Assembly: GCA_937915145.1 (NCBI GenBank)
Contig: CALDNT010000241.1
Span: forward strand, 1-35,289
Source: an uncultured Reyranella sp.
GTDB lineage: Bacteria > Pseudomonadota > Alphaproteobacteria > Reyranellales > Reyranellaceae
Length of the DNA stretch: 35,289 nt
Reading direction: 5' to 3'
Shown: piece after piece, positions 5,970-24,070 of the stretch
How positions within the stretch are numbered: the stretch's first letter is position 1
Layout of the letters: every line of letters starts with the position of its first letter
The notes under the pieces: model-generated
Seen by the model: only the letters and a program-made list of their open reading frames with translations
Told to the model about the DNA's origin: nothing
Databases searched by the model: none
Translations under genes and position numbers: made by a program

Positions 5970-6611
5970 TCAGCCGTTCGACAACCGGGGCCATTCGCGG
6001 GAGGGGCGCAGCAGCGTGTCCCGCGCCTGATCGACTTTCCGCGCGAGATAGGTGGTATCGGCGTGATCGGGATGGACGAGCCTCGCCAGGCGCTCGTGCG
6101 CCGCCCTGATCGCCGCCTCGTCGGCGTCGGCGTCGAGACCCAGGACGTCGAGAGCCTCCCCGCCGGTCATGCCGCCTGTCGCGTCGCCCTGCGATGTCAG
6201 GCGAAGGTCGCGCGCCGCGGTCGGTGCGGCCCGATTGACATAGGCTTCAAGAACCGAGACGGCGCGGCTGACCGTCTCGGGGTCGGGTGCCATTGCCATA
6301 TCGAAAACCCGCGCCCGTGGCCGGAAGGCATTGAGTACGGCACGCAGCGGCTGCAGCATCGCCCGCCATTTCAGGAAGGTCGGAACGGCCAGCATGCCGG
6401 CGCCGAGCAGCATGGTGGCGGGCCAGTTGCCGGCCATGATCGTCCAGGCAAGCAGGGGAATGCAGGCAAGGACCAGCAGGAACAGCATCCAGCGGCTCAC
6501 CCGGATCATCGTTTGCGGATCGGAATGGATGAACCAGTCAAAAAACTTTGCGGCCGTTGCCAGGACGGAGAGGCCGAGCACGATGGCGCTGACGATGACG
6601 GCGTAGTCCAT
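5970..6611 (-). CDS. Membrane-anchored J-domain (DnaJ-like) protein
   Basis: This 213-residue protein has three predicted membrane helices (about residues 4-21, 41-59 and 64-80), a linker, and a C-terminal J-domain (about 150-202). The J-domain has EALDVLGLDADADEAAIRAA, the catalytic HPD tripeptide (180-182 in LVHPDHADTTYLA) and a following helix (KVDQARDTLL). The layout recalls TIM14/Pam18-like or DjlA-like membrane J-proteins common in alphaproteobacteria. These stimulate DnaK ATPase at the inner membrane. The client is unknown. It is divergent from the thiocyanate-dehydrogenase-like gene with 120 bp between starts, so a bidirectional control region is possible. I see no clear Shine-Dalgarno. 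Confidence 0.85.
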   Translation of the reverse strand: MDYAVIVSAIVLGLSVLATAAKFFDWFIHSDPQTMIRVSRWMLFLLVLACIPLLAWTIMAGNWPATMLLGAGMLAVPTFLKWRAMLQPLRAVLNAFRPRARVFDMAMAPDPETVSRAVSVLEAYVNRAAPTAARDLRLTSQGDATGGMTGGEALDVLGLDADADEAAIRAAHERLARLVHPDHADTTYLARKVDQARDTLLRPSREWPRLSNG

Positions 6612-6731
6612 TGTCGGAGACTAGCGGCCCGGCCGGCGAAAATCAGCCTCCTGTTTCCCAAATTCGGAATGTTCTTATCCGTGGGCGATGTCTAGTATTC
6701 GCGGAGTTTTAGTGGCGGAGGAGCACGGCCC

Positions 6732-8552
6732 ATGGTTGAGCCAACAAGAGAGACGCCCACCAAGACAGTCTCTCCTGATGTAAGTGCCGGGCCGATTATT
6801 GCTCCACCGACCGATACCAGTCTTCCGGCCCGCAAGGCCTCGATCGACGAGTTCCTCAGGCGCAACGCCGAAGTGGCGGAGAAGGACCGCGCGGAATTCC
6901 AGACCTATCTTACGGCAAAGGCGGAGTCCGCGGCGCAGAAGGCCAAGGCCGCTGCGGCGACGCCGGCGCGCAAGACCCGAATGAGCCGGCGCACGATGCT
7001 GAATGTCGCCGTCGGCACAGCCGGCGTCGCCGAAGCCGCCGTGCTCGGCTACAACGCGCTGGGCGGGGGTTCTTCGTCGGACACCGGGATCTTCCAGGCG
7101 AGCGGCTCCGGGCCCCAACAGCAGCACATCACGCGCGAAATCGTCGACTCCAAAGCCGACGTCAAGGGCTGCAGCCTCGGCCAATGGGTCGCTCTGCTGC
7201 CAACCAAGCTGGGTGGCGGGACCTACGCACTCGATCTCAATTCCAACCGGGTGCTGGCCTCGATCTGGTACTGGAACTACGGCGACTTCAGCCCGATCAG
7301 CCATCACCTCTGCGCGTTTCCGAGTTCGGATCCCTATCACGGCTTCGAATTCGTCAATTCGACGCAGGGCGGCAAGAACTCGCTGATCTACGGCATTCCC
7401 ACTGCCATCACCGAGCCGGCGCCGGGCACCAACATCTATCGCGTCCGCTTCGACGGCGCACAGATGCAGATGGTTGAAAACGTCTCGGAGACCACCGGCC
7501 TCGGACTCGGTGTGCATGTGACGGTCAACCCCAAGGATGCCCAATCCTATTTCGTGACCGACGGCCAGAAGGATATCGCGGCCTGCTTCGATCGCACCAC
7601 GTCGAAAGTAAAGGCGGCCCTCAGGTTCGACTGGACGCCCAACGTACCCGATCTGCGCGACGCCTGGATCAAGGGCGGCACGCTTACCATCAAGAAGATC
7701 TATCCCGACGCCAAGACCGGCCTCTACGACTACCGCGGCACCAAGGGCAACAAGATCGACTGGGAGATGGTGCCGATGGGTGAACTGTTCGTCGAGGAAG
7801 GCTCGCTGCCCGGCGACGCCCCGCTGACGCTGACCGGCGCCGACGGAACGATCTGGCATCCCGACGGCCGGTGGGCGGCAACCGTCGTTCGTCTCTGCGG
7901 CGGCATCTGCATCCTCGACCCGGAGAAGAATTTCGATCCTGCGGCCTTCCTGCAGTTCAACAAGGATTCCCAGGACCAGTACCCGGTCGAGCAGATCGAC
8001 AAGGACACGTGGAAGGTCGTCTTCGACAAGATCCATTCGCCGGGCCACGAGATCGGCTTCTCACCCGACGGCAGGTTCCTGGTGATGATGAACAACCTCC
8101 GGGAAAACAACTGCTCGATCTTCAACTGCACCGATCCCGACCCCAGGAAGTGGCGCAAGGTCGCGCATGTCGAGGATCCGCTGTGGCGCGGCAAGTATCC
8201 GAACCCGTTCCATATGGTCTTCTCGATGGACAGCTCGAAGCTCTACCTGTCCATCCTGCATCCGTCACCGGCCTACAGCGGCATCATGGTGGTCGATACC
8301 AAGACCTGGACGATCCTGAAGGAAATCCAGGGCATCGGGCCCGATCTGCAGACGCCGGCGATCACCTATGACGGCAAGTATGTGCTGACCCCGTTCAGCG
8401 GCTTCCAGCGCCAGTCGAGCGGCATCGCGGTCATCGACACCTCGACCGACACGCTGATCGGCATCCTGCCGAGCAACGGCGGTCATCATGACTGCGTGAT
8501 CATCCCGACCAAGCTGGAGCACATGAAGCACACGCGCTCCTGCACGCTTTGA
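6732..8552 (+). CDS. Tat-exported beta-propeller multicopper enzyme, thiocyanate dehydrogenase / NosZ-propeller-like
   Basis: This 606-residue protein has a twin-arginine signal SRRTML (85-90) followed by a hydrophobic stretch. About 84 charged/Ala-rich residues precede it. The start is fixed by GGAGGAG at 6717-6723. The rest reads as a seven-bladed propeller with blade motifs such as HEIGFSPDGRFLVMMNN and HMVFSMDSSKLYLSIL. Conserved-looking His residues are HH191-192, His203, His262, His376, His439, His494 and HH585-586. The HH pair after a short loop mirrors the NosZ CuZ ligands, but there is no C-terminal CuA cupredoxin domain. Spacings of Lys159, His191, His262, Glu345, Asp371, His439 and His586 match, within 0-2 residues, the active-site residues I recall for Thioalkalivibrio thiocyanate dehydrogenase (Lys103, His135, His206, Glu288, Asp314, His381, His528). 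That enzyme oxidises thiocyanate to cyanate and sulfur in the periplasm. The substrate here is inferred. Gln540 replaces one expected His. Confidence 0.72.
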   Translation: MVEPTRETPTKTVSPDVSAGPIIAPPTDTSLPARKASIDEFLRRNAEVAEKDRAEFQTYLTAKAESAAQKAKAAAATPARKTRMSRRTMLNVAVGTAGVAEAAVLGYNALGGGSSSDTGIFQASGSGPQQQHITREIVDSKADVKGCSLGQWVALLPTKLGGGTYALDLNSNRVLASIWYWNYGDFSPISHHLCAFPSSDPYHGFEFVNSTQGGKNSLIYGIPTAITEPAPGTNIYRVRFDGAQMQMVENVSETTGLGLGVHVTVNPKDAQSYFVTDGQKDIAACFDRTTSKVKAALRFDWTPNVPDLRDAWIKGGTLTIKKIYPDAKTGLYDYRGTKGNKIDWEMVPMGELFVEEGSLPGDAPLTLTGADGTIWHPDGRWAATVVRLCGGICILDPEKNFDPAAFLQFNKDSQDQYPVEQIDKDTWKVVFDKIHSPGHEIGFSPDGRFLVMMNNLRENNCSIFNCTDPDPRKWRKVAHVEDPLWRGKYPNPFHMVFSMDSSKLYLSILHPSPAYSGIMVVDTKTWTILKEIQGIGPDLQTPAITYDGKYVLTPFSGFQRQSSGIAVIDTSTDTLIGILPSNGGHHDCVIIPTKLEHMKHTRSCTL

Positions 8553-9760
8553 GGCTGCTCGCCAACCTGGCCCTGCAGAACCTCGGACGTCGCAAGGCCC
8601 GCAGCTTATTGCTGATCGCCGCGGTAGCGATCGGCAGTGGTGTTGTCTTCACCGGTGCCACGCTGATGCGCAGCATCGATGACAGCATGGCGGTGGGTTT
8701 CACGCGGCTCGGCGCCGACATGATGGTGGTGCCCGAGGGCGCGCTCACCAACATCACCGCGGCCCTGCTCACCGTCGAGCCCACAGACCTCGTTCTCGAT
8801 GCCGACGTTCTTGCCAGGGCACATATCGCCAGCCTTGGGCGGATTGCGCCGCAGAAGATTGTGCGCGTCGAGCATTCGGGCGTCGGCGGCCACCACGACC
8901 TGGTCGATCTGATCGGCATCGACCCGGCGCGCGACTTCACGATCCAGCCCTGGCTCAAGGACAAGCTCAACCGCGATCTCCGGGCTGGTGACGTGATCCT
9001 GGGCGCCGGCCGCGATGCGCCGCTGGGGTCGCAACTACTGATCTTTGGCAAGCCGCATCTGATCTATGGCAAGCTCGGCCGCACCGGCGTCGGCACCCAT
9101 GAGCGCGGCGTCTTCATGTCGTTCGCGACGCTGGAGGCGTTGGCCGGTAGCATACCGCAGCACGGGGATGCCCGACCGGCGGTGCTGTCGCTGGGAAAGG
9201 TCACCGGCTTCCTGGTCGAACTGGCGCCGGGCGCGACGGCGCTCCAGGCACGCTTTGCCATCCTGTCGGCGGTCAAGGGTGCCAAGGTGGTGACCGGCGA
9301 CTCTTCCCTGTCGGGGATCCGTCAAGGACTTGCCGCGCTTCTCCAGGGCATTCTCGCCCTGATGGTACTGATGTTCGCCAGCATGGCCGTCATGGTGAGC
9401 GTCCTGTTCTCGGCGATCGTGACGGAACGGCGCGGCGAGCTTGGCTTGCTGAAGGCGATCGGCGCGCGGCGCGCGCAACTGGTTGGCATGATGGTCGTCG
9501 AGGCGGTGATCGCTACCGGCGTCGGTGGCGTCCTGGGTGTCGCCCTGGGGGTGCTCGTCATGCGGCTCTACGAGCGTTCGCTGGTCTATTACCTGGACAA
9601 CATCGGCGTGCCGTTCGTCTGGCTCGACCTGCCGCAAACCGTTGCCTATGCGGCGGCGGCGATCGTGCTCGCTTCGGCGATCGGCGCGCTGGGCGCGCTT
9701 TACCCGGCGTGGCGGGCGAGCCGGCGCGATGCCTATGAACTCGTCCGCGGCGAGGGCTGA
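8549..9760 (+). CDS. FtsX/MacB-type ABC transporter permease
   Basis: This 403-residue permease has the four-helix FtsX/MacB layout. TM1 is at about residues 18-38, followed by a large periplasmic domain (40-260), then TM2 (264-290), TM3 (314-340) and TM4 (365-386). The cytoplasmic loop TERRGELGLLKAIGARRAQL after TM2 is the family's coupling-helix signature, and the C-terminus ends with YPAWRASRRDAYELVRGE. Such permeases export lipoproteins, peptides or other ligands from the periplasmic side by mechanotransmission. Translation starts at TTG inside the upstream stop (TTGA overlap), so it is coupled to the propeller enzyme. In nos operons an ABC transporter (NosFY) is needed to mature the NosZ copper site. 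A similar job here is inference. Confidence 0.9.
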   Translation: MRLLANLALQNLGRRKARSLLLIAAVAIGSGVVFTGATLMRSIDDSMAVGFTRLGADMMVVPEGALTNITAALLTVEPTDLVLDADVLARAHIASLGRIAPQKIVRVEHSGVGGHHDLVDLIGIDPARDFTIQPWLKDKLNRDLRAGDVILGAGRDAPLGSQLLIFGKPHLIYGKLGRTGVGTHERGVFMSFATLEALAGSIPQHGDARPAVLSLGKVTGFLVELAPGATALQARFAILSAVKGAKVVTGDSSLSGIRQGLAALLQGILALMVLMFASMAVMVSVLFSAIVTERRGELGLLKAIGARRAQLVGMMVVEAVIATGVGGVLGVALGVLVMRLYERSLVYYLDNIGVPFVWLDLPQTVAYAAAAIVLASAIGALGALYPAWRASRRDAYELVRGEG

Positions 9761-9763
9761 CCG

Positions 9764-10432
9764 ATGCTCGCATGCCGCCAGGTGAGCAAAAGCTACAGGA
9801 CCGAACGTGGCATCGTGACCGCCGTCTCCGGGATCGATCTCGACGTGGCGGCGGGCGAGTTCGCCGCGGTCATCGGGCGGTCGGGATCGGGGAAGTCGAC
9901 GCTGATGGCGGTGATCGGCGGCCTGAGCCGGCCGTCGGGCGGCACGGTGACGATCGACGGCACCGATCTGTGGCGTCTGTCGGACAACGCGCTGTCGGGG
10001 TTCCGCAATGGGAAGATCGGTTACGTCTTCCAGTTCGCGAGCCTGTTGCCGACGCTGCGCCTGATCGACAATGTTGCTCTGCCGGCAATGCTTGGCCGCC
10101 GCCATGGCGCTTCGGGGAGTTACGCCCGGGCCGCCGGCCTGCTCGAGCGGATGGGATTGGGCGGCTATCTCGATGCCTATCCTTCCGAGATTTCCGCCGG
10201 CGAGCAGCGTCGTGTCGCGATCGCCCGCGCGCTGATCAACGATCCCGCGCTCTTGCTGGCTGATGAGCCGACCTCCGATCTCGACGAGCAGACCGAAGGC
10301 GAGATCATGAACGAACTGCTGACCATCAATCGCGAGGTTGGCACGACGCTGATTTTGGTCACCCACAATCTCGCCCTTGCCGAAAGGGCGCAGCAGGTCG
10401 TCCACATCGCCAACGGCGCGATCGTGGCATGA
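9764..10432 (+). CDS. ABC transporter ATP-binding protein (MacB/LolD type)
   Basis: This 222-residue ATPase is complete. It has Walker A GRSGSGKST (about 43-51), Q-loop YVFQFASLLPTLRL, a signature of the form EISAGEQRRVAIARAL, Walker B LLLADEPTSDLD and the switch His in ILVTHNLALAE. The length and the 'FQFASLLPTLRLIDNVALP' stretch are typical of LolD/MacB-like ATPases that pair with FtsX-type permeases. It starts 3 bp after the permease stop and its own stop overlaps the next start (ATGA). It therefore powers the permease encoded just upstream. The signature carries SAGEQ instead of SGGxQ, a common tolerated variant. Confidence 0.93.
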   Translation: MLACRQVSKSYRTERGIVTAVSGIDLDVAAGEFAAVIGRSGSGKSTLMAVIGGLSRPSGGTVTIDGTDLWRLSDNALSGFRNGKIGYVFQFASLLPTLRLIDNVALPAMLGRRHGASGSYARAAGLLERMGLGGYLDAYPSEISAGEQRRVAIARALINDPALLLADEPTSDLDEQTEGEIMNELLTINREVGTTLILVTHNLALAERAQQVVHIANGAIVA

Positions 10433-11238
10433 GCGATCAAGCCCCTGATCCCGCCACCCTGTCTTCGGAGCAGAAAGACGCGCTGATCCGGGATCTGCGT
10501 CGCGAGCTTGCCATCGCTCGTGCGGACAAGGACATGTCGAGGCGGACGCTGGCCGACGAACTGCGCGAGGCGCCACGCAAGGCGGAGGCCGCGCCATCTC
10601 TCGTCGCGCCGAGGCTCGGCCGGCTTCCCGGTTTGTGGCACTCGCCGGTCGTGCTGGGTGTCGTCGTGGCGGTGATGCTGGCTTTTGCCGTCGATGCCGG
10701 GGTCGGGCGTTATCAGGCGCACCTCGTGAAGCAGCAGCGTCAGGCGCGGCTGGAACTCGAAAATACTGCCATGAGGTCCCTCTATGTCGAACTGAAGCGG
10801 ATCGTTGCCCTCCCCGACGGTAAGTCGTTTCGCATGACGCTGTCGCTGCAGAACACCAGCCTTGCGGGGCCGCTCTACGTCATGCTCAATCCCGTGGCCG
10901 TCTACGTGCAGTCCGGCATGACCTGGCAGCAGGTACCGTCATGGCCTGCCGACGCGGACGGCGCGGGTGTTGTCACCGTTGTCGGCGACCATTCCTACGA
11001 CGTCGACTTCACGCCCGAGGTCGCGAACTGGGCCGAACTCATTCCAGGCTATATGCATGTGCGCATCCAGGACGACCTGCTGGTCAGCCAGCGTGCTCAG
11101 CCGGGCGAAGATGTCGTGGAGCGCCGGACACCGTTCTACGTCTATCTGAAACCCCATGGCGCCAACGACGAGGACATCAAGGCCCGGTCGAAGATGTCCG
11201 GCGCGCCGCCGGTCTTCATCCCGATGCCGCCGCACTGA
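10429..11238 (+). CDS. Membrane-anchored periplasmic protein, last gene of the copper-enzyme/ABC operon
   Basis: This 269-residue protein is of no family I recognise. It has a charged cytoplasmic N-terminal region (1-70, with a helix EQKDALIRDLRRELAIARAD), one membrane helix (about 73-91) and a periplasmic domain (about 95-269). The periplasmic part has beta-rich segments such as SFRMTLSLQNTSLAGPLYVM and a Trp-containing loop MTWQQVPSW. It ends in a Pro-rich tail. The start overlaps the ATPase stop in ATGA, so it is translationally coupled to the transporter. That coupling, and its single-anchor form, suggest a dedicated partner of the ABC complex or of the propeller enzyme. I see no CxxC, CxxCH or Met-rich copper motif. 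Its last 23 bp overlap the 3' end of the convergent dioxygenase gene. Confidence 0.75.
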   Translation: MSDQAPDPATLSSEQKDALIRDLRRELAIARADKDMSRRTLADELREAPRKAEAAPSLVAPRLGRLPGLWHSPVVLGVVVAVMLAFAVDAGVGRYQAHLVKQQRQARLELENTAMRSLYVELKRIVALPDGKSFRMTLSLQNTSLAGPLYVMLNPVAVYVQSGMTWQQVPSWPADADGAGVVTVVGDHSYDVDFTPEVANWAELIPGYMHVRIQDDLLVSQRAQPGEDVVERRTPFYVYLKPHGANDEDIKARSKMSGAPPVFIPMPPH

Positions 11239-13121: not shown

Positions 13122-14108
13122 ATGCGTATTTGTGTTTTTGGAGCCGGCTCGATCGGCGGTAACTTCGCGGCGCGTCTTGCCGCGGCAGGCAACGATGTCT
13201 CGGTCGTCGCACGTGGAGCGCATCTCGACGCCATCCGCGCCCGTGGCCTCGTCCTGTTGACCGGTGATCGCCGGATCGTCGCACCGGTTCGTGCCAGCGA
13301 CCGTCCGTCCGATCTCGGGCCGCAGGATGCGGTGCTGGTGACGATGAAGTCGTCGGGCCTCGGCGTCCTGGCGGAGAATGTCGGGCCCCTGTTGCGCAGC
13401 GATACGGCGGTGGCGTTCGTGCAGAACGGCATTCCATGGTGGTACGGTCACGGCCTCGGCCCATCGCGCCCGCCGGCGCCCGATCTGTCGCGGCTGGACC
13501 CCGGCGGCGCGCTGGCACGGGCAGTCGGTCTCGACCGCGCGGTCGGCGCCGTCGTCACCTCGTCGAACCATGTCGTCGAGCCCGGCGTCGTGCACAACAT
13601 CTCGCCCCAGCGCAATACGCTGTGGGTCGCGGAAACCGACGACCGCCCGAGCCCGCGCATCGATGCCTTGCGTGCGGCGCTGTTGGCGGCCGGCATCGCC
13701 TCGCCGCCGACGCGCGATATCCGCTACGACATCTGGCACAAGCTGATGGCCAATCTCACCGGCTCGACGGTCTGCCTCATCCTGCGACAGCCCAATACGA
13801 TCCAGATGACCCCCCTGATCAATCGCCTGTGCCGGAAGGCTCATGCCGAGGCGCTGGCTGTGGCGGCCGCGCACGGGGTCGTCCTCGACGACAGCCCCGA
13901 ACAGCGCTACGGCCCGACCCGCGAATATCCGGACCACCGCCCGTCGATCCTGCAGGACTACGAACTTGGCCGGCCGATGGAAGTCGAGTCGATCGTCCGC
14001 GCGCCGCTCGCCTTCGCGCGCAGTGCCGCGCTCGATACGCCGACGCTCGACGCCATCGAATCGCTGTGCGTCAGCCTGGCGGCATCGAAAGGGCTCTATG
14101 CGCCATGA
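13122..14108 (+). CDS. Ketopantoate reductase family (2-dehydropantoate 2-reductase-like) protein
   Basis: This 328-residue NADPH-dependent reductase has an N-terminal Rossmann motif (ICVFGAGSIGGNFAARLA) and the family's VLVTMKSSGL segment. It also has AVAFVQNGIPWW and the C-terminal catalytic Lys region DIWHKLMANLTGSTVCLIL. RPSILQDYELGRPMEVESIV is the conserved end motif of PanE-type enzymes, including the Ser-x-x-x-D and the substrate-contacting Glu. It starts 8 bp after the ferredoxin and overlaps the next gene by ATGA. It may reduce a 2-oxo acid in the unknown pathway of this operon rather than make pantoate, because true panE is rarely placed in such a catabolic cluster. Confidence 0.88.
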   Translation: MRICVFGAGSIGGNFAARLAAAGNDVSVVARGAHLDAIRARGLVLLTGDRRIVAPVRASDRPSDLGPQDAVLVTMKSSGLGVLAENVGPLLRSDTAVAFVQNGIPWWYGHGLGPSRPPAPDLSRLDPGGALARAVGLDRAVGAVVTSSNHVVEPGVVHNISPQRNTLWVAETDDRPSPRIDALRAALLAAGIASPPTRDIRYDIWHKLMANLTGSTVCLILRQPNTIQMTPLINRLCRKAHAEALAVAAAHGVVLDDSPEQRYGPTREYPDHRPSILQDYELGRPMEVESIVRAPLAFARSAALDTPTLDAIESLCVSLAASKGLYAP

Positions 14109-14755
14109 CGCTCGGCTACGATCTCTACTGGTCGTTTCGCTCGCCCTATTCCTATCTCGTGACGCCGCGCCTCGTGGCGCTCGAGAAGGAGTACGACGTC
14201 GCGGCCAATGTCCGCGTGGTCTATCCCATCGCCGTGCGCCAGCCCGACTTCTTCACCAACAGCGACCCGCTGTGGTTCAGTTACTTCGCCCGTGACGTCT
14301 TCCGCAGCGCCGAGTTTGTCGGCCTGCCGTTCGCCTGGGCCTCGCCCGATCCGGTGCTGATGGATGCCCGGACGCGGACCTATCCGAAAGAGCAACCATA
14401 CATCCGTCGTCTCACCCGGCTCGGTCAGGCGGCCACCGAACGGGGCAGGGGGCTTGCCTTCCTGAACGAAGTGAGCGGCGTGATCTGGAGCGGTACGGTC
14501 AAGAACTGGCCGGAGGGCGATCATCTCGCCCGCGCCGCCGAACGCGCCGGTCTCGACCTTGCCGAAATGGACGCCGCGATCACGGCCTCGCCAGAGCGCT
14601 TCGACGGCGCCATCGAGAGCAACCAGGACGCCCAACGCACCGACGGCCACTATGGCGTGCCCCTGATGGTCTTCAACGGCGAGCCCTTCTTCGGCCAGGA
14701 CCGTTTCGAGCAGTTCAAGTGGCGGATGCTGCAGAAGGGGCTGGCGAAGCGATAG
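14105..14755 (+). CDS. DsbA-family oxidoreductase, HCCA isomerase-like
   Basis: This 216-residue protein has the GST-kappa/DsbA fold. The start LGYDLYWSFRSPYSYLVTPR is the family's first strand with Ser-Pro in place of a redox CxxC. The C-terminal HYGVPLMVFNGEPFFGQDRF holds the cis-proline and the GQDR signature. It is diverged from the copy at 2535. The start overlaps the ketopantoate-reductase-like stop (ATGA), so it is the last gene of the operon beginning at 12218. A glutathione-dependent isomerisation of a catabolic intermediate is the usual guess for this family. The substrate is unknown. Confidence 0.87.
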   Translation: MTLGYDLYWSFRSPYSYLVTPRLVALEKEYDVAANVRVVYPIAVRQPDFFTNSDPLWFSYFARDVFRSAEFVGLPFAWASPDPVLMDARTRTYPKEQPYIRRLTRLGQAATERGRGLAFLNEVSGVIWSGTVKNWPEGDHLARAAERAGLDLAEMDAAITASPERFDGAIESNQDAQRTDGHYGVPLMVFNGEPFFGQDRFEQFKWRMLQKGLAKR

Positions 14756-14776: not shown

Positions 14777-15865
14777 CTATGGCCTCTGAGCGGCGTCGCT
14801 GCTGGCCTGAGGAGGCTTGCTGCGAAACAGGTGGGTGACATCGCCGACGCTGCGCTGGCGGCCGGTATCGATGCTCACGGTCGCTGTCATGCCGGCGCGC
14901 AGCGATGGTTCGCCCTCATGCGGCAGCAGGCGCAGCTTCACCGGCAGGCGTTGCACGACCTTGACCCAGTTTCCGCTGGCGTTCTGCGGCGGCAGGATAG
15001 CGAACTCCGCGCCGGTCGCCGGGCTCACGCTTTCGACCACGGCTTCCCAGCTTGCGTCGGGATAGGTATCGAGCACGATCCGGGCCTTCTGGCCAACCCG
15101 CACATGGGTCAGTTCGGTTTCCTTGAAGTTGGCCTCGACCCAGGGCCGGTTGCTGGCCACGAGCGCGAACAGCGGCGTCGCTGCCTTGACCTGTTCGCCG
15201 CGTTGCAGTCGCATGTTGACCACGGTGCCGTCGACCGGCGCCAGTATCGTGGTCCGGGCGAGGTCGAGTGCGGCGCGCTCGCGCGCGGCGGCCTTCTCGC
15301 GCACCAGCGGATGTTCGTCGGCCGGCAGTTCGGGATCGCCGTTGAGGGCGGTCAATATGCGACGCAGCTTTGCCCGCACTGAGACCGCCCGGTCGGCGGC
15401 GGTACGCGCCTCGTCCTGCGACTCGTCGCGCTTGCTGGCGGAGAGGATTCCCTTGGTGGCAAGCTCTTCCTGTCGCTGCCATTGGCGCTGGGCATATGCG
15501 GCGCGCGCCTCGGCGTTCGCCAGTTCGCTGACTGCTTCGCGCCATGTCCCGCGCAGGGTCTCGACATGGGCCCGCGCGGTGTCGAGTTCGGCCTCGGCGC
15601 TGTCCAGCGCCAGGCGGAAGGGTCGGGTTTCGAGAGTCAGCAAGATGTCGCCGGCGGCGACGGCGGCGTGATCATGTACCGGCACCCGGCGGATGGCGCC
15701 CGATACTTCCGATGCGATATGCACGATGTGGGCTTTGACGTAGGCGTTCTCGGTGACGATGTAGCGTCCGCCGGACAGCCACCAGTATCCCGCGCCCGCA
15801 ATCGCCAGCAACGGCACGACGACCAGCAGGACAAGGCGTGGCAAGGCGTGCCTGGCGCGGCTCAT
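14777..15865 (-). CDS. emrA: EmrA-type membrane-fusion protein of a multidrug efflux pump
   Basis: This 362-residue adaptor has an N-terminal membrane anchor (about residues 9-29), then the EmrA hallmark ENAYVKAHIVHIASEVSGAI and a lipoyl half. A long helical hairpin follows (about 80-195). The second lipoyl half carries TTILAPVDGTVVNMRLQRGEQ, and the barrel has PWVEANFKETELTHVRVGQ. It bridges an EmrB permease to an outer-membrane channel. It overlaps the upstream marR by 4 bp, so the two form one minus-strand operon, while the cognate emrB is divergent on the plus strand. No TolC homologue is in the window. Confidence 0.93.
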   Translation of the reverse strand: MSRARHALPRLVLLVVVPLLAIAGAGYWWLSGGRYIVTENAYVKAHIVHIASEVSGAIRRVPVHDHAAVAAGDILLTLETRPFRLALDSAEAELDTARAHVETLRGTWREAVSELANAEARAAYAQRQWQRQEELATKGILSASKRDESQDEARTAADRAVSVRAKLRRILTALNGDPELPADEHPLVREKAAARERAALDLARTTILAPVDGTVVNMRLQRGEQVKAATPLFALVASNRPWVEANFKETELTHVRVGQKARIVLDTYPDASWEAVVESVSPATGAEFAILPPQNASGNWVKVVQRLPVKLRLLPHEGEPSLRAGMTATVSIDTGRQRSVGDVTHLFRSKPPQASSDAAQRP

Positions 15866-16419: not shown

Positions 16420-16428
16420 GCCTTGACC

Positions 16429-17970
16429 ATGAGTTCAAGTCCGCCCGCCGTCTCGTCGCCGCCAGCCATTCCGGGCGAATCCTATTCGACCGGCCGTCGG
16501 GTGATGATCCTGGTGGCGGTGGTGCTGGGCTCGACGCTCTATGCGACGACGCTGCTGATCGCCTCGACCCTGCTGCCGCAGATGCAGGGCACGATGTCGG
16601 CGACCCAGGATGAGATCGCCTGGACCATGACCTTCAATATCCTGGCGACGGCGGTGGCGACGCCGATGACCGGCTGGCTGGCGGCGCGATTCGGCCGGCG
16701 CGACACCATGATCTGCTCGGTTTTCCTGTTCACCTTCACGACATTCATGTGTGGCAGCGCCGAGTCGCTGGAAACGCTGGTGTTCTGGCGCATCCTGCAG
16801 GGTGCCTTGGGCGCCCCGGTGATTCCGCTGTCGCAGACCATCCTGCTCGACACTTTCCCCAAGCGGCAGCAGGGCCTGGTCGTCTCGATCTTCGGCATGG
16901 CGGTGGTGATCGGTCCGGTGATCGGCCCCGTCGTCGGCGGCATGCTGTCGGAACTCTACAGCTGGCGCTGGGCTTTCTACATGATCGTTCCGGTAGGATT
17001 GCTGTCGGTTACCGGCCTGCGCCTGACCCTGCCGCGCGACAGGATAACCGGCCGCACCGCGCTCGACTGGACCGGCTTTCTGTCGCTGTCCGTTACCATC
17101 GCCTGCATCCAGCTCGTGCTGTCGCGCGGCCAGCGCCTCGACTGGTACGACTCGGATGAGATCATGCTGGAAACCTTCATCGCCGTCGTGGCGTTCTGGA
17201 TATTCCTGGCGCACAGCCTCACTGCCCGGCGGCCGTTCCTCAACCTGCGCCTGCTGCTCGACCGCAACTACGCGCTCGGTCTGGTGCTGGTCCTGATCTA
17301 CGGCATGCTCAACTTCACGCCGATGGTGCTGCTGCCGCCGCTGCTGCAGCAGCATGCCGGTTTTCCCGACATGCTGATCGGCCAGATTGTCGCTGCGCGC
17401 GGCGCCGGCGCCACGCTCGGCTTCTTCCTTGCCATCTTCGTCGGCCGAATGGATCCGCGCATCGGCCTGATCGGAGGCTTTGGGCTGCAGGCGGTCTCCG
17501 GCCTCTGGCTGATGAGCCTCGATCTCAACGTCGACACCGGCACCCTGATGGCCAACAGCTTCGTCCAGGGCATCGCCATCGGCGTCATCTGGGTACCGCT
17601 CACCCTCGTCACCTTCTCGACCATCGGTGCCGCCAACCTGGCCGAGGGCACCGCCGTCTACCACCTGCTGCGCAACATCGGGTCGAGCTTCTTCATCTCG
17701 ATCTGCGTCGCCGAGATCGTGCGCTCGACCGGCGCGAACTACGGCCGCATGGTCGAACTGGTGAACCCCTTCAACAAGGTGCTGGCGTTGCCGTGGGTGA
17801 CCGGAGGCTGGGATTTCGAGACGGTGCAGGGGCTTGCCCGGCTGTCCAAAGAGATCAACCGACAGGCGGCCATGCTGGGCTATATCAACGCCTTCGGCCT
17901 CTATACCTTGTGTTCGGCGCTCGCGATCCCGCTAGTCCTGCTGATTGGTCGTCGCGTCCGCGGGGCCTAG
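16429..17970 (+). CDS. emrB: EmrB-type MFS multidrug efflux permease (DHA2, 14 TM)
   Basis: This 513-residue drug:H+ antiporter of the DHA2 family is hydrophobic throughout. It has motif A (GWLAARFGRRD) after TM2, motif C (VIGPVIGPVVGGML) in TM5 and the early DEIAWTMTFNILA segment characteristic of EmrB. ATG at 16429 is preferred over the in-frame TTG at 16423. It is divergent from the marR-emrA operon, and together they form a pump that should extrude hydrophobic drugs or uncouplers through an outer-membrane channel encoded elsewhere. Confidence 0.93.
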   Translation: MSSSPPAVSSPPAIPGESYSTGRRVMILVAVVLGSTLYATTLLIASTLLPQMQGTMSATQDEIAWTMTFNILATAVATPMTGWLAARFGRRDTMICSVFLFTFTTFMCGSAESLETLVFWRILQGALGAPVIPLSQTILLDTFPKRQQGLVVSIFGMAVVIGPVIGPVVGGMLSELYSWRWAFYMIVPVGLLSVTGLRLTLPRDRITGRTALDWTGFLSLSVTIACIQLVLSRGQRLDWYDSDEIMLETFIAVVAFWIFLAHSLTARRPFLNLRLLLDRNYALGLVLVLIYGMLNFTPMVLLPPLLQQHAGFPDMLIGQIVAARGAGATLGFFLAIFVGRMDPRIGLIGGFGLQAVSGLWLMSLDLNVDTGTLMANSFVQGIAIGVIWVPLTLVTFSTIGAANLAEGTAVYHLLRNIGSSFFISICVAEIVRSTGANYGRMVELVNPFNKVLALPWVTGGWDFETVQGLARLSKEINRQAAMLGYINAFGLYTLCSALAIPLVLLIGRRVRGA

Positions 17971-18559: not shown

Positions 18560-19813
18560 ATGGACCAGTCCATCCCGCCGCCCGCCACCCAGGCCGCACC
18601 ACCCGCGAGGCCGGTCGCGCGCGCGCCGGCCCCGCCATCGCCCGCCGCTGCGCCGCCAGTTTCGCCGGCCCCGGCATCCGCCCCCCCGGTCGGCGCGCTG
18701 CCGGACCGTGGCCGGCAGTCGTCGGTCGGCCGCGGCCGGTCGCTGCTGCGGCCGCGCACGTTCGCCGTCGCCGCGGTGCTTCTGTTCGCACTCGCCTATG
18801 GCGGCCGCGAACTCTACATGCGGTTCACTCATGTCTACGAGTACGACGCCCGCGTGTCGGCTGATATCGTGACGGTTTCCAGCCGTTCCGACGGTTGGGT
18901 GGTCGAAATGCCGGTGCGCGAAGGCATGCATGTCGAGGCCGGCCAGACGATCGCGCGTATCGACGATCGCGTCGCCAAACTGCGCGCCGATGCGTTGCGC
19001 GCGCAGATCGAAGGGGTGCGGGTCGAGCGGACGCGGCTGCGTGCCGAACGGCGTCTCAACGTCAGCCAGGCCGACGCCGCCGTGCGCACGCGCACCTCGG
19101 CGGTAACGGCCCGTGAAGAAGCGCTGGCGGCGCTGGGATCGGACCTCGACCTTGCCAAGCTGGAGCTCGAGAGAAGCCGCGTGCTTTTCGAGCGCCGCGT
19201 CGGCAACGAACGTCAGTTTCAGACCGCTCAGGCGGCTGTGACCAAGTTCGAAAGCCAGATCCTGCAGCTTCAGGCGGAACTTCAGCAGGCCAAGGGCAGC
19301 CTCGAGGAGGCGCGCGTCGAGCACGAAAAGGTCGGCATGATCGACGCCCAGATTGAGGCGCTCACCTTCCAGGTCGCCAACCTCGCCGCCCAGCTCCACC
19401 AGCAGCTCGTCGATGTCGAGGACCGGACGATCAAGAGCCCGATACCGGCGGTGATCGACCGTACCTTCGTTCTCGTCGGCGAATACGTCGCTGCCGGCCA
19501 GCGCATCATGCTGCTGCACAATCCCAAGGAAGTCTGGGTCGAGGCCAACATCAAGGAAACCCAGGTGAGCCGGCTCAAGCTCGGCCAGCTCGTCCATGTT
19601 TCCGTCGACGCCTTCCCCAACGACAAATTCACCGGCCGCGTCGCGCGCATCGGCAGCGCCACGATGGGCCGCTTCGCGCTGATCCCGACGCCCAATCCGT
19701 CGGGCAATTTCACCAAGATCACCCAGCGCGTGGCGGTGAAGATCGATATGGTCGACATGCCGAAGCAGCTGGCGCCCGGCATGATGGTCGAAGTCGACAT
19801 TGACGTCCGCTAA
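18560..19813 (+). CDS. EmrA/HlyD-type membrane-fusion protein (second system)
   Basis: This 417-residue adaptor has an unusual N-terminal tail of about 60 residues made mostly of Pro and Ala. The membrane helix (about 67-82) follows, then YEYDARVSADIVTVSSRSDG (lipoyl half 1) and a long helical hairpin (about 130-285). Lipoyl half 2 carries DRTIKSPIPAVIDRTFVLVG, and the barrel carries VWVEANIKETQVSRLKLGQ. The family role is linking EmrB to an outer-membrane channel. The start is 4 bp after the regulator's stop. Its 3' end overlaps the permease gene by 14 bp. Confidence 0.92.
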   Translation: MDQSIPPPATQAAPPARPVARAPAPPSPAAAPPVSPAPASAPPVGALPDRGRQSSVGRGRSLLRPRTFAVAAVLLFALAYGGRELYMRFTHVYEYDARVSADIVTVSSRSDGWVVEMPVREGMHVEAGQTIARIDDRVAKLRADALRAQIEGVRVERTRLRAERRLNVSQADAAVRTRTSAVTAREEALAALGSDLDLAKLELERSRVLFERRVGNERQFQTAQAAVTKFESQILQLQAELQQAKGSLEEARVEHEKVGMIDAQIEALTFQVANLAAQLHQQLVDVEDRTIKSPIPAVIDRTFVLVGEYVAAGQRIMLLHNPKEVWVEANIKETQVSRLKLGQLVHVSVDAFPNDKFTGRVARIGSATMGRFALIPTPNPSGNFTKITQRVAVKIDMVDMPKQLAPGMMVEVDIDVR

Positions 19814-21401
19814 CCCACCGGTTCCGGCCGCCCCGGTCCAGAACGCAGCCTATCTCGCCGAACACTATGGGCCGGCCTATCGCTGGCTGGTGACGATCAC
19901 CGGCATGATCGGCGTGGTCGCCATGGTGCTGGCGATGACCACGGTCAACGTCGCCGTGCCCGACGTCATGGGCGCCTTCGGCATCGGCCAGGACAAGGCG
20001 CAGTGGATGTCGTCGGCCTATATGGCGACCATGACCGCCGGCATGCTGCTGAACGTCTGGGTCTCGGGCGTGCTGGGCGAGCGCCGCACCTTCATCGGCG
20101 CCTTGTTCTTCTTCTCCGCCGGCGCGCTGCTGGGCGGCATGGCGCCCAACGAGGACGTGCTGATCTTTGCCCGCATCCTGCAGGGCTTCAGCGCCGGCAT
20201 CGCCCAGCCTCTGGTGATGGCCACCATCTTCACCGTTTTCCCGGCCGACCGGCGCGGCTCAGCGATGGGCATCTTCGGCCTGGGCGTCGTCTTCGCCCCG
20301 GCGATCGGTCCGACATTGGGCGGGCTGATGATCGAGTATTTTTCCTGGCGCTACGTGTTCTTCATCTCGCTGCCGTTCTGCGGTCTGGCCGCCATCCTGG
20401 GCGCGCTGTTCATGCCGACGCGACCGCTGGCGCGCGAGATCCCGCCGTTCGACTGGCTGGGCTTCGGGCTGCTCCTGGTTGGACTGTGGGGCCTGATGAC
20501 CGGCATTGCCGACGGCCAGCGCGAAGGCTGGGCCTCGGACATCATCGTATTGCGCCTCACGCTCGGCACGTTGGCGGCCGTGGGCTTCGTGCTGTGGGAA
20601 CTTCACACGCCGCGCGCGCTGCTCGACATGCGGATTTTCGCCAACCTGGAGTTTTCCGCCACCGCGGTGATCGCCTTTATCTTCGGCGCCGGCATGATGG
20701 GCTCGACCTATGTGATCCCCGTGTTCGTCCAGACCATGGTGGGCTTCACGCCGCTGCTCGCCGGGCTGATGATGATGCCGGCCGGGCTGATGCTCGCGGT
20801 CATCTTCCCGCTCGCCGGCCGGATGTCCGACACCATTCCGGCCTCGATCATGATCATCGGTGGCCTCATCCTGTTCTCGCTCGGTTTCGCCCTGATGGTT
20901 GGCGCCGACGCCAACACGACCTTCTGGACGCTGGTCGGCATGGTGATGGTGTCGCGGCTGGGGCTGGGGTTCATCAACCCCACGCTCAATGCCGCCGCAC
21001 TCAAGGCGCTGCCGCCGGAGAAGGTGCGTCAGGGCGCCGGCGTGGCGAATTTCATGCGCCAGCTCGGCGGCGCTTTTGGCATCAACCTGATCGTCGCCTT
21101 CTTCGAGGTGCGCACGCGCTTCCACGCCGATGCGCTCACCGCGACCCAGCACTGGGGCAACCACACCACCGAGCGTCTGCTGCTTGAGGTCGAGCGGCTC
21201 ATGGGCCGCTCTGGCCTGCCGTTCCAGCAGCAAAAGGCGGCAGCGCTGGAATACCTCGGCACCATGGTGAACACCCAGGCGCAGATGCTGGCCTTTTCCG
21301 ACACCTTCATCATCATCGCCATCGTGGCGCTGGCGGCCCTGGTTCCGGCCGCCCTGCTGTCGCGCTCGCAGCTGAGGGTGCGACGGCTCGCCTGGCGCTG
21401 A
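19800..21401 (+). CDS. EmrB-type MFS multidrug efflux permease (second system)
   Basis: This 533-residue DHA2-family permease has about 14 membrane helices. Visible motifs include NVAVPDVMGAFGIGQDKAQW, the GVLGERRTF loop and motif C FAPAIGPTLGGLM. A long C-terminal region ends with VPAALLSRSQLRVRRLAW. The start is TTG at 19800, 14 bp inside emrA. The frame is closed by a stop shortly upstream (19782), and the first ATG lies within TM1, so TTG is the only sensible start. Translation is therefore coupled to emrA. It forms the transport channel of the second pump, driven by protons. Confidence 0.92.
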   Translation: MTSANPPVPAAPVQNAAYLAEHYGPAYRWLVTITGMIGVVAMVLAMTTVNVAVPDVMGAFGIGQDKAQWMSSAYMATMTAGMLLNVWVSGVLGERRTFIGALFFFSAGALLGGMAPNEDVLIFARILQGFSAGIAQPLVMATIFTVFPADRRGSAMGIFGLGVVFAPAIGPTLGGLMIEYFSWRYVFFISLPFCGLAAILGALFMPTRPLAREIPPFDWLGFGLLLVGLWGLMTGIADGQREGWASDIIVLRLTLGTLAAVGFVLWELHTPRALLDMRIFANLEFSATAVIAFIFGAGMMGSTYVIPVFVQTMVGFTPLLAGLMMMPAGLMLAVIFPLAGRMSDTIPASIMIIGGLILFSLGFALMVGADANTTFWTLVGMVMVSRLGLGFINPTLNAAALKALPPEKVRQGAGVANFMRQLGGAFGINLIVAFFEVRTRFHADALTATQHWGNHTTERLLLEVERLMGRSGLPFQQQKAAALEYLGTMVNTQAQMLAFSDTFIIIAIVALAALVPAALLSRSQLRVRRLAWR

Positions 21402-22858: not shown

Positions 22859-24070
22859 ATGTCTGTTGCGACGCCAGCCCTGCCTGTCCGCGCCGAGCGC
22901 CTGTGGGCGGCGCTGCTGGCGGCGACGCTGATGAACCTGCCCCTGGGATCGGTCTACGCCTTCAGCGTGCTGCTGCGGCCGATCGAGCAGGAGCTGGCCA
23001 TTCCGCGCTCGGCGCTGTCGCTGGTTTTCGGCCTGTGTACGGTGGGGTTCACGGTGGGCTCGGTCGGCGCCGCCTTCCTCTATCGCGCTGCCCCGGCGCC
23101 GGTCCTGGTGCTGGCGAGCGCGTTGGCGGCCGCCGCCGGCACCGCGATGGCGGCAACGGCCGGCGGGCTCACGCAATTGCTGCTGGGCTACGGCCTCGTG
23201 TTCGGCACCGGCGGCGGTGCGGCCTACATCCTGCTGCAGCAGAGCGTGAACATGCTGGTGCGGCGGCGTCAGGGGCTGATGAACGGCTACGTCGTCAGCC
23301 TCTACCCGATGGGCGCCATGATCGCGACGCCCGCTTTCCATGTCTGCAACGAGGCCTTCGGCTGGCGCACCACGCTGGCCGGGTTGGCGACGGTGCTGGT
23401 GGTGTGTGGCGTGGCGGCGGCGCTGCTCGTCCGGCATGGCGGGGCGCGGCTGGTTGCACCGGTAGGCGGTGCGTCGACAGATAGCGAGACGAGGGGCCCG
23501 GCCATCCTGGGCCCGACCTTCTTCAAGCTTTCGGCGACGTTCTTCCTCGCTGCCTCGGCTGGGCTGATGGTGCTGAGCCAGGCGCGCGAGATCGTGGCCG
23601 CCTATGGCGGGGCGGCAGCCCTTGCGGTGGCGGCCACCACCGGCATCACCGGCGCGATCGCCGCCGCGCGCATCGGCGGCGGCTGGCTGGTCGATCGTTT
23701 TGCGGTGCCGCACGTGATGTGTGCGGCGCACGGGCTGGCGCTGGCCGGCGGGCTGTTGGTGATCCTGCTGCCGGCGCCTGTGACCGCGGTCCTGGGGCTG
23801 GGAATGGTCGGGCTGGGCTATGGCTTCGTCTCCGGCGCCACCGCCGGCGGCATTGGCCTCTACTGGCGGCCGGCCGACTACGGCCGCGTCGCCGGCCGCA
23901 CCTACGTCGCCTGGTGCCTGGCCGCCATCGGCCTGCCGGTCCTGGCCGGACACCTGTTCGACCTGACCCGCCAGTACGACACGGCGGTGCTGATCGCGGC
24001 CGGCGCCAACATCGCTGGCATGGCGATGGCGCTCACGATGCCGAAACGCGGCTGGCGGGAGGGCGGCTGA
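22859..24070 (+). CDS. MFS transporter, OFA (oxalate/formate antiporter) family-like
   Basis: This 403-residue, 12-TM carrier begins LMNLPLGSVYAFSVLLRPIE, whose G-x-x-Y-A-F-S-V-L pattern is the signature of TM1 in OFA-family MFS proteins. The GYGLVFGTGGGAAYILLQQ helix and IGGGWLVDRFAVP loop (motif A-like in the second half) also fit. OFA members exchange or take up small mono- and dicarboxylates. The true substrate is not deducible. It is convergent with the DUF35-thiolase operon (30 bp apart). Confidence 0.85.
   Translation: MSVATPALPVRAERLWAALLAATLMNLPLGSVYAFSVLLRPIEQELAIPRSALSLVFGLCTVGFTVGSVGAAFLYRAAPAPVLVLASALAAAAGTAMAATAGGLTQLLLGYGLVFGTGGGAAYILLQQSVNMLVRRRQGLMNGYVVSLYPMGAMIATPAFHVCNEAFGWRTTLAGLATVLVVCGVAAALLVRHGGARLVAPVGGASTDSETRGPAILGPTFFKLSATFFLAASAGLMVLSQAREIVAAYGGAAALAVAATTGITGAIAAARIGGGWLVDRFAVPHVMCAAHGLALAGGLLVILLPAPVTAVLGLGMVGLGYGFVSGATAGGIGLYWRPADYGRVAGRTYVAWCLAAIGLPVLAGHLFDLTRQYDTAVLIAAGANIAGMAMALTMPKRGWREGG

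Follow-up and report, generated by a model that had tools for sequence, protein, structure and literature searches.

To our knowledge, only a small number of propellers with a multicopper site have been described. Two of the systems closest to the one considered here are the following. NosZ is a copper propeller exported by twin-arginine translocation (Tat) that needs an ATP-binding cassette (ABC) transporter and periplasmic partners (NosDFY and NosL), with NosFY and NosD being required for its CuZ site (PMC7558416). The linkage of thiocyanate dehydrogenase (TcDH) to ABC genes has already been published for a Thioalkalivibrio gene cluster (Berben et al. 2017; PMC5328954, PMC5744179), in which TcDH is followed by permease and ATPase genes and by a protein with one N-terminal transmembrane (TM) helix. 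The ABC genes adjoining TcDH are thiocyanate-induced, with log fold changes of 4.5 to 6.8; copper acquisition was suggested for them, no metal-binding domains were predicted and their exact role was left open (PMC5744179, PMC5328954). A comparable operon lies at 6732-11238 of the 35,289-nucleotide contig of an uncultured Reyranella sp. analysed here (the window). It encodes a TcDH-like propeller (gene 1), a permease (gene 2), an ABC ATPase (gene 3) and a membrane-anchored protein (gene 4). Sequence comparison places gene 1 in a clade, named Q-type, in which an active-site histidine of TcDH is replaced by glutamine in every complete sequence aligned. Its members are mostly accompanied by the other three genes. 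The Thioalkalivibrio cluster differs in having two ABC pairs, copCD, fccAB, tatA and a two-component system.

The Propeller and Its Altered Active Site

Gene 1 (6732..8552, + strand, 606 amino acids) is a seven-bladed propeller homologous to the TcDH family. TcDH proper (EC 1.8.2.7) contains three copper ions and turns thiocyanate into cyanate and sulfur. A phmmer search of the PDB retrieved nine distinct sequences at E values of 7e-146 to 3e-156, the next match lying at E 0.37; the nine are labelled thiocyanate dehydrogenase, uncharacterized or Tat-signal protein, and the PDB titles shown name the entries TcDH. Propeller identity to TcDH is 44-50%. The AlphaFold model of gene 1 (mean predicted local distance difference test score, pLDDT, 81.9; predicted template modelling score, pTM, 0.87) aligned in VIA with the twelve listed TcDH entries at Z scores of 55.9-58.5 over 453-460 residues and 1.6-2.0 Å, with 8q9x as the top match (Z 58.5), while unrelated propellers scored Z 33.5 and below (several at 31-33.5). 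NosZ (5i5j) reached Z 28.8 over 317 residues, under several of these unrelated propellers. No NosZ family was matched in Pfam or NCBIfam at E up to 1, and the sequence ends at the propeller, lacking a CuA cupredoxin domain. An assignment as NosZ was rejected on these three grounds, and NosZ, which belongs to another propeller family, is a fold-level analogue only.

The twin-arginine motif, S85-R86-R87-T-M-L (residues 85-90), identified as a motif only, is unusually deep, being preceded by an n-region of 84 residues. The ratio of nonsynonymous to synonymous substitution rates (dN/dS) is 0.17-0.41 in the n-region and 0.04-0.16 in the core (five pairs each), so the n-region is probably translated. 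An earlier interpretation of the same DNA, the sequence-only reading, had proposed a Tat-exported seven-bladed copper propeller resembling TcDH, and both the fold and the resemblance agree with the structural alignment, the database matches and the SRRTML motif. Its placing of the histidine ligands as in NosZ and TcDH holds in part: most of the TcDH site is kept, but one histidine is not, a change throughout the clade that went unnoticed in that reading, and the likeness to NosZ is confined to the fold.

Thirteen active-site residues of TcDH are listed in the legend to Figure 4 of PMC6504805. Mapped by alignment, gene 1 keeps 12 of them, and the exception is His482, which is Gln540 (codon 8349-8351, + strand). 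Gene 1 thus shares fold, Tat motif and 12 of 13 site residues with TcDH of Thioalkalivibrio paradoxus and Pelomicrobium methylotrophicum (5F75, 8Q9X), from which it differs by His482 to Gln, Gly292 to Met (Met349, codon 7776-7778, + strand) and Leu289 to Met (Met346, codon 7767-7769, + strand). Glutamine stands at position 482 in 68/68 complete Q-type rows (the window, 65 of 69 loci and two from a draw of 397 genomes of one order) and histidine in 8/8 TcDH-type rows (T. paradoxus, P. methylotrophicum and six distant homologues). Four rows were left out as incomplete (L047, L049, L061 and L070), of which only L047 spans the site, with Gln there; propeller copies from the genus entered the count only if they belong to the L002-L070 set. 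The 68 rows span Reyranella, Rhizobiales, Methylococcaceae, Melainabacteria and a planctomycete, many of them being closely related Reyranella sequences. Position 292 changes in perfect step with 482, being Met in 68/68 Q-type and Gly in 8/8 TcDH-type rows, and Met at position 289 likewise marks the Q-type clade. In a 36-row tree with columns 482 and 292 masked, all 28 Q-type rows fell on one side of a branch with support 96/84. With the six distant rows as root, the next to diverge are T. paradoxus and P. methylotrophicum; because His stands on both sides of this rooted tree, His482 is likely ancestral. The uniform Gln against His, Met292 in step with it and the supported clade are the reasons why gene 1 is named Q-type and is not filed as TcDH. 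According to PDB titles, the same histidine has been changed to glutamine by design in T. paradoxus (6SJI) and P. methylotrophicum (H447Q; 8YU5, 8YU6); on the effect of H482Q or H447Q on TcDH activity, nothing was found in a literature search that missed the main TcDH papers.

The clade-wide replacement of a catalytic-site histidine would suit a protein that stores, scavenges or senses copper without catalysis, the ABC transporter acting as loader or signal relay, as would the occurrence of the propeller in methanotrophs and the N-terminal helix-turn-helix (HTH) domain of the Melainabacteria-type L068. Against this stands the invariance of Lys103, Glu288, Asp314, Asp529, Arg544 and the remaining listed residues in 68/68 Q-type rows, a set that is not obviously needed for mere storage, and such a role is considered very unlikely.

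Several copies of the propeller are unusual in structure. In L068 (1405-3186), a transposase-like domain (HTH_Tnp_1; Pfam, 38.6 bits) precedes the Tat motif of the Q-type propeller, so that an exported enzyme carries a domain of DNA-binding type; the N-terminus of L064 looks similar by eye, the scan having covered L068. The propeller gene of Methylotetracoccus oryzae (L061, 7770-9410) is split across two open reading frames (ORFs), and G227, a distant TcDH-type row, has a duplicated TcDH fragment resembling that reported for Guyparkeria, to which it may itself belong.

Conservation and Distribution of the Cassette

The ORF list of the window gives four + strand frames, joined as the sequence-only reading had placed them. 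Gene 1 has an ATG start with a ribosome site, GGAGGAG, at 6717-6723. The TTG start of gene 2 (8549..9760, 403 amino acids) overlaps the TGA stop of gene 1, gene 3 (9764..10432, 222 amino acids) follows after a 3-base gap, and gene 4 (10429..11238, 269 amino acids) shares an ATGA overlap with gene 3. The frames are held to be beyond chance because genes 1-3 match known families and gene 4 recurs in 60/70 loci with dN/dS of 0.16-0.35 (five pairs), whereas the antisense ORFs across the operon (457 and 520 amino acids) are taken as shadow ORFs of G+C-rich DNA.

Among 70 loci (L001-L070, L001 being a cut copy of the window), the permease, ATPase and anchored genes accompany the propeller in 60, so that the four-gene association put forward from the window recurs in other genomes. 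ATPase and anchored protein form one polypeptide in 16 of these 60, which argues for joint action of the anchored domain and the ABC transporter; in a further locus, L119, one match runs across both, and L046 runs from the J-domain gene through the permease and the fused ATPase-anchored gene to the propeller. Five of the ten loci without a full cassette are cut by the end of the sequence (L001, L006, L018, L027 and L049). L058 lies near a contig edge in a genome where parts of the permease gene are found at the ends of two further contigs, and the remaining four are from Methylococcaceae.

Presence and absence were compared in 61 genomes, the source genome and 60 relatives, of which 37 belong to the genus and 24 do not. 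The propeller is found in 27/37 genomes of the genus and in 0/24 outside it. The anchored protein occurs in 25 of the 27 enzyme-positive and in 1 of the 10 enzyme-negative genus genomes, and the two enzyme-positive genomes lacking a match are drafts of 73% and 75% completeness. The single enzyme-negative genome with a match, G009, has a decayed locus (L127, G009:C226, 230-1588) in which J-domain fragments and a start-less anchored gene stand back to back; the 6 kb read showed no propeller, permease or ATPase gene between these remnants or next to them. Fisher tests of co-occurrence gave p values of 4e-6, 8e-8 and 1e-7, which are inflated by kinship. In 397 genomes of the Ancylobacter order, the propeller profile found three Q-type genomes and one TcDH-type genome, and the anchored profile was matched at full length or nearly so in exactly the three Q-type genomes. 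Despite the effect of kinship, the distribution looks like that of a single unit that is gained and lost as a whole.

The propeller family is sparsely distributed. Draws around a Methylolobus genome found it in 6/369 genomes of the class, centre included (one Q-type, five TcDH-type), and in 2/398 of the phylum, with no T. paradoxus-like TcDH in either; it is rare in the phylum of the Melainabacteria genome, where the draw gave 1/224, the centre genome alone. In the order draw and the class and phylum draws around Methylolobus, only the best first-look candidates per genome were scored, so misses are possible, and propeller matches at E >1e-11 were ignored as generic repeats, except for the duplicated fragment of G227. 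The propeller gene of Methylocella tundrae lies on a 304 kb plasmid (two records).

Two further observations are mentioned for completeness. A 31-position fragment of the anchored domain (L131, G492:C1:2182807-2182899; E 2.8e-11) occurs in a genome without a propeller match, and L010 and L013 (record series CAMARK) are two different whole-cassette copies in one metagenome-assembled genome (MAG), reflecting either duplication or a binning mixture.

The ABC Transporter and the Anchored Protein

Genes 2 and 3 belong to the MacB/LolC/FtsX class of ABC systems, in which ATP hydrolysis drives motions on the periplasmic side. In Pfam, gene 2 scores 60.3 bits for FtsX and, right at the cut-off, 27.0 bits for MacB_PCD, and its hydropathy profile gives a 1+3 TM topology with a periplasmic domain (TM helices 20-38, 268-286, 320-338 and 365-383). 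The Thioalkalivibrio permease has the same topology, the ABC genes of the two systems being likened by description. Gene 3 matches ABC_tran (109.4 bits), is LolD/MacB-like and carries a Walker A motif (GRSGSGKS), a signature (ISAGEQ) and VTH; its Walker B motif, LLLADEP, was read by eye, a stricter pattern giving no match. The FtsX/MacB-type permease and ATPase of the sequence-only reading are therefore upheld by these scores. With the MacB/LolCDE/FtsEX class the pair shares the FtsX C-terminal and MacB_PCD domains and the LolD-like ATPase, and it departs from that class in the fusion of the ATPase to a periplasmic anchored domain in 16 of the 60 loci. Both proteins fall under the NCBIfam cut-off of every family among the matches listed (the best 25 matches in the case of the ATPase), including the equivalogs LolD (225.7 of 307.75 bits), LolCE (32.8 of 362.45) and MacB (26.4 of 966), and Pfam found no MacA/HlyD family among the four operon proteins. 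For these reasons LolCDE or MacAB proper was rejected. A NosDFY assembly system was rejected as well, the permease being of FtsX/MacB type and genes 2 and 4 matching no NosD or NosY family in Pfam or NCBIfam.

Gene 4 has a single TM helix (residues 74-92, by hydropathy), followed in the model by an immunoglobulin (Ig)-like β-sandwich (mean pLDDT 85.3), and ends in PMPPH. His210, Met266 and the C-terminal His269 are present in 60/60 loci and Met209 in 59/60, all four being found in the window. No Pfam or NCBIfam family exceeded its cut-off, which agrees with the earlier description of a membrane-anchored protein of no known family. Matches in Foldseek and VIA are to generic sandwich folds (best Z 8.7), and Kir, ApaG and adaptin were not accepted as relatives. 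As regards the known copper chaperones NosL, PCuAC, Cox11 and CopC, gene 4 exceeded no family cut-off and its structural matches were generic. The architecture resembles that of Cox11, a copper chaperone with one TM helix and an Ig fold (PMC7558416), to which no family match links it. Relative to NosDFY and NosL, the system differs both in its FtsX/MacB-type permease and in a partner modelled as Ig-like with one TM helix.

The class includes MacB-type efflux pumps, judging by family names, and Berben et al. did not settle the role of the Thioalkalivibrio genes (PMC5744179), so that the ABC pair might export a product such as zero-valent sulfur, or move a substrate or signal, without building the enzyme. 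The operon proteins include no MacA/HlyD-like adaptor, however, the model gives the anchored protein an Ig-like sandwich fold, and a fused ATPase-periplasmic protein would fit a protein-directed machine better. Export is accordingly regarded as improbable.

Possible Substrate and Proposed Copper Handling

Retention of 12 of the 13 listed residues could mean that gene 1 is an ordinary TcDH in which Gln540 is tolerated and which would oxidise thiocyanate to yield cyanate and sulfur, whether as detoxification or as a nitrogen source. Tyr164, which belongs to the electron exit path that has been proposed for TcDH of T. paradoxus with its cytochrome (PMC9456337), is kept in 66/68 Q-type rows. The gene is also found in two MAGs (L007 and L021) whose isolate names belong to the SCN18 and SCNpilot series used for thiocyanate reactors (PMC8061750), and cyanase is present in 24/27 enzyme-positive as against 5/10 enzyme-negative genus genomes (Fisher p 0.02, uncorrected for kinship). 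None of the 11 other Q-type genomes searched has cyanase, however, and neither do three of six TcDH-type genomes; this evidence is mixed, and thiocyanate catabolism was not read off from it. Pfam named no inorganic sulfur oxidation gene among 17 scanned ORFs of the window (a TauD dioxygenase is present), the genome-wide search being for cyanase. His482 and Gln482 lie on opposite sides of one branch, and an ordinary TcDH is considered rather unlikely.

The reading favoured here, at about an even chance of being right, is that of a Q-type multicopper redox enzyme of the TcDH lineage, metallated with a dedicated ABC transporter and an Ig-like partner. Gene 1 would be a periplasmic enzyme with a metal site altered at position 482 and by Met at 292. 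It may oxidise a small sulfur or cyano-type anion and pass the electrons to a periplasmic acceptor, and its substrate or copper count may differ from those of classical TcDH. Genes 2-4 would form a dedicated machine acting on the periplasmic side, in which permease and ATPase turn ATP hydrolysis into motion of the permease periplasmic domain. Copper would be handed over or gated by the Ig-like protein, which bears the conserved Met-His and a Met-Pro-Pro-His C-terminus. A dedicated ABC transporter and a Met/His partner beside a copper enzyme fit assisted metallation, as with NosFY and NosD for CuZ. By this analogy, the most likely function of the ABC transporter and its partner is to help metallate the propeller, copper delivery and the direction of action being our inference; the likeness of the machine to NosDFY with NosL would be one of analogy and not of homology.

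Several points weigh against this reading. Four Methylococcaceae genomes have the enzyme without the permease, only generic FtsX-like matches being found (E 1.4e-9 to 7e-7), and therefore the ABC transporter is not always needed; its loss is likely in these methanotrophs because their rows nest in a group that mostly has it. No such ABC genes were seen in six TcDH-type loci of the distant branch, of which 10-17.5 kb were read. Gene 4 matches no known copper-chaperone family, and its structural matches are middling and generic (best Z 8.7). Tyr164 is kept in 2/8 TcDH-type rows and is Asn in the other 6, and is hence no family-wide mark of function. A literature search gave no biochemical report on any Q-type protein. 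The self-contained, ABC-coupled system of the sequence-only reading is thus retained for the coupling, seen in 60/70 loci, across phyla and in fusions, but not as a general requirement, given these methanotrophs, nor as four genes complete in themselves, a J-domain gene lying outside the range that had been drawn.

A bolder view, tentative and somewhat doubtful, is that Q-type proteins are a separate cuproenzyme class with a rewired copper site (Gln482 with Met289 and Met292), a substrate other than thiocyanate and an undescribed FtsX/MacB-class metallation machine with a fusable ATPase-copper-handling domain.

The J-Domain Gene and the Wider Neighbourhood

A membrane J-domain-like protein is encoded at 5970..6611 (- strand), divergently from the operon (Pfam DnaJ, 26.7 bits against a cut-off of 27.8). 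In Alphaproteobacteria this gene belongs to the unit. It is matched at E <1e-47 in 27/27 enzyme-positive Reyranella genomes, in pieces in G019 and G029; in other genus genomes the J-domain matches are weaker (E about 1e-18 to 1e-26), the one in G011 spanning most of the profile, and G009 has a weaker match plus the fragments. In 8/9 of the loci L038-L046 the gene is on the same strand as the propeller, with no match in L044. HPD is kept in the J domain of the window and in 6/9 aligned relatives, and not in L012, L045 and L046. The probable role of this protein in Alphaproteobacteria is to help with the long n-region that the Tat precursor carries.

The divergent intergenic region (6612..6731) was aligned for 32 Reyranella-type loci. 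Within it, GTCTAGTAT at 6690-6698 is part of a conserved block with the consensus GtcTAGnaT, which may serve as a promoter element.

A functional neighbourhood beyond the cassette was not adopted, globin and TauD neighbours occurring in only part of the Reyranella-type loci. Outside the cassette, these loci and the other groups had no gene family in common except for scattered weak clusters and, in Alphaproteobacteria, the J-domain gene. Elsewhere in the window, Pfam-level matches point to a DSBA-like protein (13436-14752). HlyD-type adaptors lie at 14780-15865 (- strand) and 18560-19810, and transporters of the major facilitator superfamily at 16423-17967, 19800-21398 and 22859-24067.

Implications

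The natural Gln clade, the ATPase-anchored fusion and a Reyranella TcDH found no mention in the literature searched, which missed the main TcDH papers. A large natural clade bearing the substitution that crystallographers have engineered makes the role of this residue testable by evolution. Some genera with Q-type systems, Ancylobacter and Reyranella among them, have cultured strains. The dedicated and sometimes fused ABC partner may represent, next to NosDFY, a second and independent case in which ATP drives the maturation of a copper site in a propeller.

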